In this document: positions 38,720-63,035 of the stretch, in pieces
How the letters are laid out: each line of letters opens with the position of its first letter
Position numbering within the stretch: position 1 is the stretch's first letter
Assembly: GCF_020523925.1 (NCBI RefSeq)
Contig: NZ_JAJAPW010000008.1
Location: 1-64,000, forward strand
DNA length: 64,000 nucleotides
Origin: Neotamlana laminarinivorans
GTDB taxonomy: Bacteria > Bacteroidota > Bacteroidia > Flavobacteriales > Flavobacteriaceae
Reading direction: 5' to 3'
The notes under the pieces: model-generated
Database searches by the model: none
What the model was told of the DNA's origin: nothing
Seen by the model: the letters and a program-made list of their open reading frames with translations, nothing else
Program-made: the position numbers and the translations under genes

Positions 38720-38770
38720 TTTAAAATTGGTTTTGACTACTACACTTATCAAGACTAGAAAATTAAACGT

Positions 38771-38859
38771 AATGTCACACTGAGCGCAGTCGAAGTGATT
38801 TCATTTCTAAAATCATATAAATTACTTCATTGGGTTTCGACTGCGCTCAACCTGACATT
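38771..38859. repeat. Palindromic repeat element 1 (left of the GIY-YIG gene)
   Basis: The left arm reads CACTGAGCGCAGTCGAAGTG and the right arm GTTTCGACTGCGCTCAACCT. TGAGCGCAGTCGAA pairs with TTCGACTGCGCTCA to make a long hairpin with an AT-rich loop that includes ATATAAATTACTTC. The same element occurs in full at 39340 and 39457. Confidence 0.92.
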
Positions 38860-38934
38860 TGAATTTAAATATATTAAAATAAAAATAACATCACTGTTAC
38901 CGTTTAAGCGCTTATTATCTTTAAAACATTACAA

Positions 38935-39249
38935 CTAATCACCTTTATACTTAAAATGAGTAGCATTTCTACATTCAGATAAAATTTGCAACATATCAAA
39001 ATCACCTTTTATTAACGCCTCTTTTTTTGACCTTGACCATTTTTTGATTTTCTTTTCAAAATAAATGGCTTGAAGAACATCATTAAAGGATTCATAAAAA
39101 ACAATTTCTAGAGGTCTTCTTTTATAAGTATAACAATCTCTTTTTATACCATTTTGATGTTCTAAAAATCTTCTTTCTAAATTATTAGTTATACCAGTGT
39201 AATATGAACTATCAGAACACTTAAGTATGTAACCTTGGTACGTTAACAT
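38935..39249 (-). CDS. Small GIY-YIG nuclease-domain protein
   Basis: Starting at the ATG at 39249 gives 104 residues (MLTYQGYILKCSDSSYYTGI). The frame stays open to 39327, but that extension only translates the neighbouring repeat arm, so the shorter start is chosen. The UPF0213/YhbQ-type GIY-YIG motif is complete: YIL-x10-YTG, then TNNLERRFLEHQNG with the catalytic Arg, and the metal-ligand Glu in YESFNDVLQAIYFEKKIKKW. It is likely a stand-alone single-domain endonuclease. It sits inside an array of palindromic repeats, and its 5' region abuts a half-repeat. Confidence 0.9.
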   Translation of the reverse strand: MLTYQGYILKCSDSSYYTGITNNLERRFLEHQNGIKRDCYTYKRRPLEIVFYESFNDVLQAIYFEKKIKKWSRSKKEALIKGDFDMLQILSECRNATHFKYKGD

Positions 39250-39284
39250 ATTCTCTTTATTTGTTATATAAATTTTAGTAATTA

Positions 39285-39312
39285 GGGTTTCGACTGCGCT
39301 CAACCTGACATT
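39285..39312. repeat. Right arm only of the palindromic repeat (truncated element 2)
   Basis: GGGTTTCGACTGCGCTCAAC followed by CTGACATT, identical to the right arm of element 1. The left arm and loop are missing: at the expected place there is GIY-YIG upstream sequence. It is followed by a 27-bp spacer and then element 3. Confidence 0.92.
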
Positions 39313-39339
39313 TGAACTTAATAACATTAAACTAAACGC

Positions 39340-39429
39340 AATGTTTCACTGAGCGTAGTCGAAGTGATTTTTATTTCTGAAACAATATAAATTACTTCAT
39401 TGGGTTTTGGCTGCGCTCAACCTGACATT
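39340..39429. repeat. Palindromic repeat element 3
   Basis: Full element of 90 bp: left arm CACTGAGCGTAGTCGAAGTG, AT-rich loop (TTTCTGAAACAATATAAATT), right arm with one change (TTTTGGCTGCGCTCAACCTG). A 27-bp spacer (TGAACTTAACAACTTTAAAA then CAAACGC) leads to element 4; the preceding spacer has the same length and nearly the same sequence. Confidence 0.92.
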
Positions 39430-39456
39430 TGAACTTAACAACTTTAAAACAAACGC

Positions 39457-39547
39457 AATGTCTCACTGAGCGTAGTCGAAGTGCTTTTTATTTCTGAAAC
39501 AATATAAATTACTTCCATTAGGTTTCGACTGCGCTCAACCTGACATT
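39457..39547. repeat. Palindromic repeat element 4
   Basis: Full element of 91 bp with the same arms and loop as element 3. The start-to-start distance from element 3 is 117 bp, so elements 2, 3 and 4 form a head-to-tail tandem array of repeat plus spacer. It ends 28 bp before the stop of the sensor kinase gene. Confidence 0.92.
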
Positions 39548-39575
39548 GAACTAAAGAAGTAACATTCCTAAAATG

Positions 39576-40397
39576 TTAATCAAACGGATATTTAATAACC
39601 ATTTTAACGCCTTCGTTGGGTTGTGATATAAGTTCAAAACTCGCATTAACTAAATTGGCTCTGCTATTCATATTTAATAACCCTGCGCCTTTTTTAACTG
39701 TGTTTACATCAAAACCTATTCCGTCGTCTTCTGCGGTTATTATTAAATCTTCTGGGGTGTAATTGAGAGTAACGCTTAAGTTTTCGGCTTCAGAATATTT
39801 AACTGAGTTAGATAGAAATTCTTGTAAAATTCTAAAAATAATTATTTCGTGCTTTTTATTTGAAAACTCAATTTTATCACCAATTATTTTTAATTCCGCG
39901 GAAGCGAATTTCATTTTTTGTAAACGCTTCAATTCATTGCTTATAGATTTTTCAAAACCAATATTTAAAACAACCTCGTTATTTAACGTTCTTGAGAGTT
40001 GCCTAACTTCGTGTAGGCTTTGGCTTAAGGCTTCGGTAGTGTCTTTAAATTTTTCTTTTACATCATCTTGAACTTGCATTTTTAATATACTTAATTGCAT
40101 GCTAGCAAATGAGAGCAGTTGGCCAACATTATCGTGCAATTCCCAACCTATGTTTTTTAAAGTTTGTTCCTGTGTTTCGGTTTGCGCTAATACAATTTCT
40201 TGTTCAAAGGCTTGTTTCTGTTTTATTTTTTCGAGTAACAACTTATTTTTTCGTTTTTGAAAAACAATAAAAAACAGAATAACTAAGGAGGTAATAATAA
40301 CCAAAACGGCTATCATATAAACCAATAAATAACGTTCGGCAGCTGTAGTAGCTATACGATCTGTGTTTTGAACGAAAATAAAATTAAAATAAAACAT
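39576..40397 (-). CDS. NarX/DesK-type (HisKA_3) sensor histidine kinase
   Basis: The frame opens at 40505, but the ATG at 40397 leaves a compact N-terminus before a single transmembrane helix (LLVYMIAVLVIITSLVILFFIVF) and is preferred: 273 residues. The H-box is IGWELHDNVGQLLSFASMQL; the ATPase part shows LQEFLSNSVKYS, EDDGIGFD and GAGLLNMNSRANLV. Kinases of this type normally pair with a NarL/LuxR regulator encoded next door, but none is present; downstream is only the repeat array. Signal and partner unknown. Divergent from the TonB-C gene. Confidence 0.92.
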   Translation of the reverse strand: MFYFNFIFVQNTDRIATTAAERYLLVYMIAVLVIITSLVILFFIVFQKRKNKLLLEKIKQKQAFEQEIVLAQTETQEQTLKNIGWELHDNVGQLLSFASMQLSILKMQVQDDVKEKFKDTTEALSQSLHEVRQLSRTLNNEVVLNIGFEKSISNELKRLQKMKFASAELKIIGDKIEFSNKKHEIIIFRILQEFLSNSVKYSEAENLSVTLNYTPEDLIITAEDDGIGFDVNTVKKGAGLLNMNSRANLVNASFELISQPNEGVKMVIKYPFD

Positions 40398-62718: not shown

Positions 62719-63035
62719 ATGGATAGATATTTAAACTTAATAATAATAGAAATTGAATTTATTGCTGACAACTATCTGATTGGAAAATCCGTAGAGCAAA
62801 CGCGAAAAAATTATCGAATAACGAAAATCACATCTTTTTTTACAGAAAATTTGAAAATGAAATAGTCGAAATCGTTAGATTTTTACACCAGAGAATGGAT
62901 ATAAAGAAACGACTGAAACAAAAAAACGGCACACTTAAGATGTATAACCGCAATTTCGTCGGATTCGACTACCTTTCGACTGCGCTCAGTGCTGGCTATA
63001 ATCCACTCGTAATTACTAATGTCAATGCTAATTGA
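62719..63035 (+). pseudogene. Possible decayed or frameshifted small gene
   Basis: Frame one opens with an ATG at 62719 (MDRYLNLIIIEIEFIADNYL) and stops at 62863-62865. A shift of one base at about 62859 gives a second open frame beginning EIVEIVRFLHQRMDIKKRLK and running to a stop at 63033. Together they would encode about 105 residues, but the last third translates a palindromic repeat arm (62974-62995). No homology recognised. It may instead be non-coding. Confidence 0.25.
62974..62995. repeat. Single arm of the 39-kb palindromic repeat family
   Basis: TTTCGACTGCGCTCAGTGCT shares 15 bases (TTTCGACTGCGCTCA) with the right arm of the elements at 38771-39547, without a matching left arm nearby. 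It lies in the accessory region right of the candidate att site. Confidence 0.6.

Follow-up and report, generated by a model that had tools for sequence, protein, structure and literature searches.

What does a small nuclease gene do in the middle of an array of palindromic repeats? The question arises at positions 38771-39547 of the window, a stretch of 64,000 nucleotides of Neotamlana laminarinivorans DNA, for which a sequence-only reading had proposed that a GIY-YIG protein might serve the repeats around it as RAYT transposases serve REP palindromes. Our analysis confirmed the arrangement on which this idea was built, with three inverted hairpin pairs and one lone arm around a GIY-YIG gene of 104 aa. 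The array had also been rightly read as tandem, with a period of about 117 bp, because repeat finding recovered a 32-nt right arm four times, at spacings of 453, 117 and 118 bp. Searches with the arm TGAGCGCAGTCGAA, allowing up to two mismatches, located eight copies in the window, seven of them within 38781-39537, against a shuffle expectation of 0.12 (maximum 1 in 100 shuffles). In the 3.62-Mb genome there are 36 copies of the core TGAGCGNAGTCGAA and none of the reversed control, and these two results together rule out chance inverted repeats; the wider pattern YGAGCGNAGTCGAR has 49 copies in the same genome. A solitary arm core that lacks the TGTC tag was found by arm search elsewhere in the window, at 62975-62988 on the minus strand. 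We also considered a known RNA family and rejected it, as Rfam gave five matches here, each to a microRNA precursor family and each below its gathering score, which were judged to be hairpin artefacts.

The repeat unit stands, although what had been described as a 90-bp element is better understood as two REP-like hairpins joined head to head into a dimer, much as in a REPIN, because each arm is itself a small hairpin with a 4-bp covarying stem. A dimer spans about 85 bp, with two inverted arms and the tags facing outwards, and is repeated every 117-118 bp. The three complete dimers, to which no strand is assigned, are located at 38773-38857 (arms 38773-38797 and 38832-38857, with the TGTC tags outside), 39342-39427 (left tag TGTT, and a right-arm core with two mismatches) and 39459-39545 (inverted arms recovered by arm search and repeat finding). 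Between the first two lies the nuclease gene, at 38935-39249 on the minus strand; its longest ORF has 130 aa and starts further up, and the start common to its relatives is at 39249. The lone arm, at 39285-39310 on the minus strand, has a TGTC tag, a stem and a GAGCGCAGTCGA core, with its end some 35 bp before the start codon. It had been taken for a right-arm-only half element; the arm is real, but it does have a partner, since alignment with the congener G139 (locus L035) identifies it as the 5' half of a dimer in which the gene is enclosed as cargo. The 3' half is a decayed arm just past the stop codon, at about 38887-38915 on the plus strand, and its better-kept counterpart in G139, TGAGTGTAGTCGAA, comes right after the stop codon. 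By this alignment, the gene forms the loop of a head-to-head dimer, the other half of which has decayed in the window and is better preserved in the congener. In both genomes the gene is placed between RluA-like and histidine-kinase-like genes (names by reading), and the two species differ in how many dimers flank it on each side.

The structure of the arm was deduced from 219 distinct arms, taken from the 80 best related loci and from loci of the window's own genome. The arm consists, in this order, of TGTC, one base, four stem bases, GAGCGNAGTCGA and four complementary bases; that is, a REP-like hairpin in which the TGTC tag stays unpaired, the 4-bp stem varies in sequence with its two strands covarying, and the 12-nt core is fixed. 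Watson-Crick pairing at the four stem positions amounts to 97, 96, 94 and 89% of these arms, compared to 57, 45, 31 and 42% after shuffling, with two to four pair types at each position, and the three pairs beyond the stem show no Watson-Crick excess. TGTC is found at the fixed position -9 to -6 in 186 of the 219 arms, and CGTC in three. As single-stranded DNA, dimer 1 (89 nt) folds with -22.4 kcal/mol (z -7.55) and dimer 2 with a z of -2.90; five single arms, of types A, Acg, C and D, fold no better than shuffles when nearest-neighbour energies are used. The tip base of the core is C in 270 copies, T in 12, A in 7 and G in 5, counted on copies that were not dereplicated. From this varying tip base, and by analogy with DNA mini-hairpins, one may conjecture that the core closes into a triloop of the GNA kind, held by sheared G-A pairing. 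Many of the copies in the genome lie between reading frames or at frame ends, and some directly upstream of start codons, as seen by eye and left uncounted.

PF01541 is the only Pfam family matched by the protein (E = 5.7e-17), in agreement with its first identification as a GIY-YIG protein, and no NCBIfam model matched it over a cut-off. Residues Y17, G19, R27 and E65 are invariant in 23 aligned proteins, the closer 22 of which share the C-terminal motif SECRNATH..KY. The AlphaFold model (pLDDT 89.8) has UPF0213 and then Slx1 proteins as best Foldseek matches; PDB 1zg2, the top one, was also matched by profile at E 6e-17. Identity amounts to 45% with Bacillus subtilis YazA and to 32% with the Neisseria homolog. 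A careful tree of 75 proteins (104 columns), with many forks open, separates two sides by a split with 100/100 support. One contains the Neisseria, most proteobacterial, L002-type and type-D proteins; the other contains the window protein, types Acg, B and C, YazA, and the proteins from Methylobacterium and Sphingomonas parapaucimobilis. On this tree, the window protein is not in the clade that holds the Neisseria homolog. Four GIY-YIG matches were obtained from the genome: the window gene, a second small gene (L002), and frames of 603 and 465 aa that, by their length, are presumably UvrC and a protein resembling DNA polymerase III epsilon.

Are gene and repeats specifically linked? One scan of genome contigs retrieved 243 relatives, and we examined the best 80 of these 243. 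In these loci, arms (TGAGCNNNGTCGAA, up to one mismatch) number 204 in the 147.5 kb within 800 bp of the gene, compared to 21 in the 741 kb farther away, and 62 of the 80 contain at least one such arm. In a frequent layout, a plus arm precedes the start codon by 30-60 bp and a minus arm follows soon after the stop. Likewise, either core occurs exactly within 300 bp of the gene in 78 of the 80 best loci and in 17 of 17 neighbourhood clusters; these derive from a lumping rule and 13 are single loci, so that the count of independent places is approximate. The 18 loci without the main core have beside the gene, as seen by eye, the variant CGAGCGCAGTCGAG. Thus, that the same gene might regularly occur without repeats was mostly not what we found, although small GIY-YIG genes without repeats do exist. 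We also searched the 250 bp on both sides of each gene for inverted pairs that begin with TGTC or CGTC and score at least 12. Such a pair flanks 51 of 74 best-related loci (six of the 80 were dropped for short flanks), 37 of 83 genes of a wider set, and only one of 503 control ORFs called mechanically on the same contigs; the remaining 46 of the 83 are below the threshold. The wider set comprises 85 GIY-YIG genes, two of them dropped here, from 80 stretches of 139 family genomes, among the matches listed. Its flanks revealed arms with a plan similar to that of the window arm and with different sequences: type B, TGTCACTTCGAGTG ... TATCGAGAA; type C, TGTC-stem-GAGC-2 nt-GTCGA-stem; and type D, GTCATTC..., GTCATTGCGA... 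and GTCACCCTGAACTTGTTTCAGGGTC.

These arm types follow the proteins closely. On a tree of 161 proteins, of which 148 were labelled and the 13 unlabelled left out, arm type changes seven times, compared to a mean of 70 and a minimum of 61 in 500 shuffles; six of the 85 genes in the wider set had been excluded because of their length or of stops. Removal of identical proteins left 145 rows and again seven changes (shuffled mean 69, minimum 59); these figures are to be read knowing that the labels were defined after viewing the flanks and that related loci share descent and are not independent.

The abundance of repeats also accompanies the gene. Copies of YGAGCGNAGTCGAR range from 11 to 134 (median 33) in the 17 genomes, the window's own included, with a match at E <= 1e-38. 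The median is 8 in 27 genomes with a match between 1e-38 and 1e-24, 11 in 11 genomes (1e-24 to 1e-15), 2 in 33 genomes (1e-15 to 1e-5) and 0, with a range of 0-51, in 51 genomes without a match at 1e-5. Matches up to 1e-15 compared to the rest give a Mann-Whitney p of 1e-11, with a Spearman coefficient of 0.63, for the 139 family genomes and not corrected for phylogeny. The possibility that copy number is unrelated to the gene, raised at the outset, is thus mostly contradicted, with exceptions. Twelve of the 139 genomes have at least 10 copies and no match better than 1e-15; for example, type-A arms in genomes without a close gene reach 51 in G070, 34 in G071, 32 in G017 and 29 in G133. A PF01541 search of 11 of these 12 genomes (G097 was left out) yielded no small GIY-YIG frame in G070 and G082. 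In the other nine, 15 small GIY-YIG loci, which are part of the small GIY-YIG frames of those genomes, showed no type-A or Acg core within 1.8-3.2 kb each. Conversely, 12 genomes with a match at E <= 1e-15 have at most three copies. The existence of repeat-rich genomes without a close gene, and of gene-bearing genomes with few copies, therefore indicates that the repeats outlive the gene or arrive without it.

Comparisons among congeners indicate turnover at individual sites. At the window's own site, G000 and G139 contain the gene and the array, G140 a single degenerate arm, and G141 another repeat family and no gene. This last stretch (L198), orthologous to 38720-39576 of the window, is a convergent intergenic site occupied by GTCATTGCGA-type repeats instead, which suggests a site preference common to unrelated repeat families. 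At a second site, G139 contains a type-B gene in a type-B array and G000 a single element without gene, whose left flank matches the first arm of G139 and whose interior matches the third. The G000 copy looks like a deletion by recombination between direct arms, its direction being read from the hybrid arm only. Of three sites compared, two (L015 and L016) are shared by G000 and G140 but missing from G139 and G141; the third, L020, occurs in all four congener genomes in a partly decayed state. The comparison with empty sites, which had been proposed as a check, thus revealed turnover, but at these three sites neither a clean insertion junction nor a target duplication, the intergenic DNA having diverged. 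Fourteen of 25 own sites have a counterpart among the element-bearing stretches of G139 and G140; only stretches with an exact core were compared, and the other 11 sites are not to be called absent, L020 being an example of a shared one. Copy numbers in the congeners are 37 in G139, 22 in G140 (no match at 1e-15) and 53 in G141.

Repeats of this kind have a precedent, and it was too strong to state that no such system had been described. According to Di Nocera et al. (2013; PMC3733652), CGTC REPs have an unpaired tag at one end (CGTC, often TGTC), a hairpin body with alternative complementary stem bases and, in the superfamily, a short unpaired 3' tail with the consensus CCA. Head-to-head dimers predominate among them, and Bacteroidetes are one of the five phyla named (PMC3733652). 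The four described families have stems of 8-9 bp and loops of 4-5 nt, CGTC-1 being the dRS3 of Neisseria; a dedicated transposase is apparently lacking, and their origin was left open (PMC3733652). The term GIY is absent from the main text of that article, which has excinuclease ABC complex proteins among its REP-decorated proteins. The window repeats resemble CGTC REPs in their tag and in their head-to-head dimers; in contrast, they have a 4-bp stem and a 12-nt core, dimers in tandem arrays, and a GIY-YIG gene inside. With four covarying pairs around a 12-nt core, they therefore fall outside the four described CGTC families.

A second precedent is the REPtron formed by RAYT, or TnpA-REP, and its repeats. 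TnpA-REP processes single-stranded REPs together with the motif preceding them and has co-evolved with its own REPs, according to Corneloup et al. (2021; PMC8266576). As in those REPtrons (PMC3733652, PMC8266576), the window gene is flanked by tagged hairpins, enzyme and repeat have evolved in step, and the dimer is the unit. Unlike them, the window enzyme is a GIY-YIG protein and not an HUH tyrosine transposase (Y1_Tnp), and the tag is TGTC instead of GTAG. Because it has neither HUH enzyme nor GTAG, the window system would be REPtron-like in its working and not a REPtron by membership. The original interpretation is therefore partly supported, with a specific association between gene and repeats and with an analogy to RAYT that holds for the architecture: tag and hairpin, head-to-head dimers, a gene inside a dimer, and joint change of protein and arm. 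A RAYT protein was rejected as the partner of these repeats, as the only Y1_Tnp match of the genome lacks flanking arms, with none within about 700 bp; the core nearest to it lies inside a neighbouring transposase-like frame.

On the side of the enzyme, Ssn of Neisseria is reportedly a published, site-specific GIY-YIG nuclease of single-stranded DNA that works with NTS repeats and has many homologs with their own specificities. The window protein is similar to it in being a small, single-domain GIY-YIG protein with conserved catalytic residues and a cognate repeat in many copies, but it belongs to the UPF0213/YazA side of the 100/100 split, has 32% identity to the Neisseria homolog, and is associated with another hairpin design. 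UPF0213/YazA proteins (PDB 1zg2, 1ywl) are, by sequence and fold, its nearest solved relatives. In contrast to the window gene, with its tagged arrays and its RluA-like and histidine-kinase-like neighbours, B. subtilis yazA lies between trmNF and rsmI without tagged hairpins, within a yabA-trmNF-yazA-rsmI context seen in two Bacillaceae. A literature search through titles and the starts of abstracts, with preprints and most subscription papers outside it, retrieved no paper that we recognised as dealing with a pair of GIY-YIG protein and REP.

Homologs beyond the Flavobacteriaceae were sought in the plasmid collection PLSDB, where 33 records matched the L002 protein and six the window protein; 16 of these 39 were examined. 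An automatic scan detected tagged hairpins on both sides of six genes (from S. meliloti, Rhizobium, Shinella, Sphingobium, Novosphingobium and Spirosoma) and on one side of four (N. gonorrhoeae, Azospirillum, Aeromonas and Planktothrix). The same scan detected none at the other six, those of Methylobacterium, S. parapaucimobilis, Photobacterium, Sinorhizobium C101, B. subtilis yazA and Radiobacillus. The N. gonorrhoeae locus contains 11 dRS3 (CGTC-1) motifs in 2.66 kb, and we assume that the Neisseria homolog found among dRS3 repeats is Ssn itself. Several individual loci deserve mention. In S. parapaucimobilis an inverted pair of TGAGCGAAGTCGAA hairpins, seen by eye, precedes the window-like gene, with GTTCA replacing the tag. 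A Planktothrix agardhii plasmid (L286) has a Neisseria-side GIY-YIG gene and TGTC repeats between an MmeI-type restriction gene and the DISARM gene drmA. L273 (NZ_CP119142.1), filed in PLSDB as a plasmid, is a 2.17-Mb replicon of Neisseria gonorrhoeae, and its GIY-YIG frame has no annotated feature.

How, then, is the association best explained? Beyond the observed anatomy, covarying stem, tag, specific association, agreement of arm type with protein subfamily, and correlation between copy number and presence of the gene, we consider it highly probable that nuclease and hairpin are a cognate pair. That the two merely hitchhike together, with intergenic hot spots gathering REP-like repeats and small nuclease genes that have no functional link, would agree with the different repeat family, without gene, at the orthologous site of G141 and with the small GIY-YIG genes that lack repeats. 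We nevertheless hold it to be very improbable, as it is opposed by the enrichment of arms near the gene, by the tagged inverted pairs that flank it closely, and by the way in which arm type tracks the protein subfamily and copy number the gene. An equally remote chance is that RAYT transposases mobilise the repeats and that these are ordinary hairpins serving to terminate transcription or to stabilise mRNA: many copies do lie between or at the ends of reading frames (by eye), and the genome has one Y1_Tnp family match, but this match has no arm within about 700 bp, the tag is TGTC and not GTAG, and copies are also seen by eye just upstream of start codons. It is somewhat less improbable, and still unlikely, that the protein is a housekeeping nuclease of the host, selective for structure like UvrC, Slx1 or YazA, that clears the hairpins or cruciforms of parasitic repeats. 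Its best Foldseek matches, UPF0213 and Slx1, and its 45% identity to B. subtilis YazA point that way; however, a generic structure-selective enzyme needs neither a subfamily-specific arm sequence nor repeats beside its gene, and yazA has none.

A more serious alternative, to which we give a substantial chance short of an even one, is a role like that of Ssn without mobility, in which the repeat would be cut in single-stranded DNA, for instance during transformation uptake, so shaping genome dynamics, and would spread by other means. It draws on reported work on Ssn and NTS in Neisseria, on the position of the Neisseria homolog among dRS3 repeats, and on Riemerella, of the Flavobacteriaceae, being reported as naturally competent. 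Against it, the window protein lies opposite the Neisseria homolog across the 100/100 split, at 32% identity, and the place of the gene in the loop of a dimer is left unexplained. This place would make gene and arms together a REPtron in which a GIY-YIG protein replaces the RAYT/TnpA-REP tyrosine transposase. The explanation we prefer, and consider reasonably probable with its mechanism included, is therefore a cognate pair of enzyme and target, a GIY-YIG REPtron composed of an endonuclease from the UPF0213-like side and its TGTC-tagged hairpins. In such a GIY-YIG REPtron, a copy would become single-stranded on the lagging strand, during repair or upon DNA uptake, and the arm would then fold by means of its 4-bp stem and its conserved core. 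Reading the core together with the TGTC tag, the nuclease would nick the strand, after which dimers could be deleted, duplicated or copied in the course of repair or through exchange with a strand from another copy. That the nuclease recognises folded single-stranded DNA and nicks it is a natural inference and rather likely. A causal part of the nicking in the spread of the repeats is more weakly inferred, at somewhat less than an even chance.

The gene and a family of short hairpin repeats dispersed through the genome seem to have co-evolved, and the gene product thus becomes a candidate for the enzyme that one class of palindromic repeats in bacteria has long lacked. A concrete enzyme can now be proposed for each repeat family of the CGTC-tagged REPs, which according to PMC3733652 apparently have no dedicated one. 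GIY-YIG subfamilies pair with their own tagged hairpins in Flavobacteriaceae, and 10 of the 16 named loci, which belong to Alphaproteobacteria, Neisseria, Aeromonas, Spirosoma and Planktothrix, have the same layout. The pairing also gives a meaning to small proteins annotated as excinuclease ABC subunit C or as GIY-YIG nuclease family protein. As a tentative generalisation, somewhat below an even chance, small GIY-YIG nucleases from both sides of the split and from several phyla could be the missing enzymes of CGTC/TGTC REPs, each nicking its own hairpin in single-stranded DNA and thereby multiplying it, independently of RAYT. If GIY-YIG REPtrons are real, REP mobility would have an origin independent of RAYT transposases.

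Finally, some further loci came up during the searches. In G140, neither L252 nor L262 has a type-A or Acg core; L252 (C23:38255) is a small GIY-YIG frame that, as judged by eye, lies among apparent tRNA sequences; its surroundings lack tagged hairpins, and it possibly represents another way of life of small GIY-YIG genes. In the window's own genome, the repeat core lies in frame within two transposase-like ORFs (by eye), at 1501-1514 of both L005 (C37:18927) and L006 (C37:33603), where the peptides ...AFPERSRRVHF... and ...ACPERSRRVHL... correspond to ...SNHLHL... of the relative L338, in the region of the HUH motif. The same genome also contains, at 1438-1800 of L002 (C70:88339), the second small GIY-YIG gene, around which lies a different palindrome, with GTCATGCTGAACTCGTTTCAGCATC upstream and GATTCCGAAACAAGTTCGGAATGAC downstream; gene and palindrome constitute a second, type-D-like pair within one genome.
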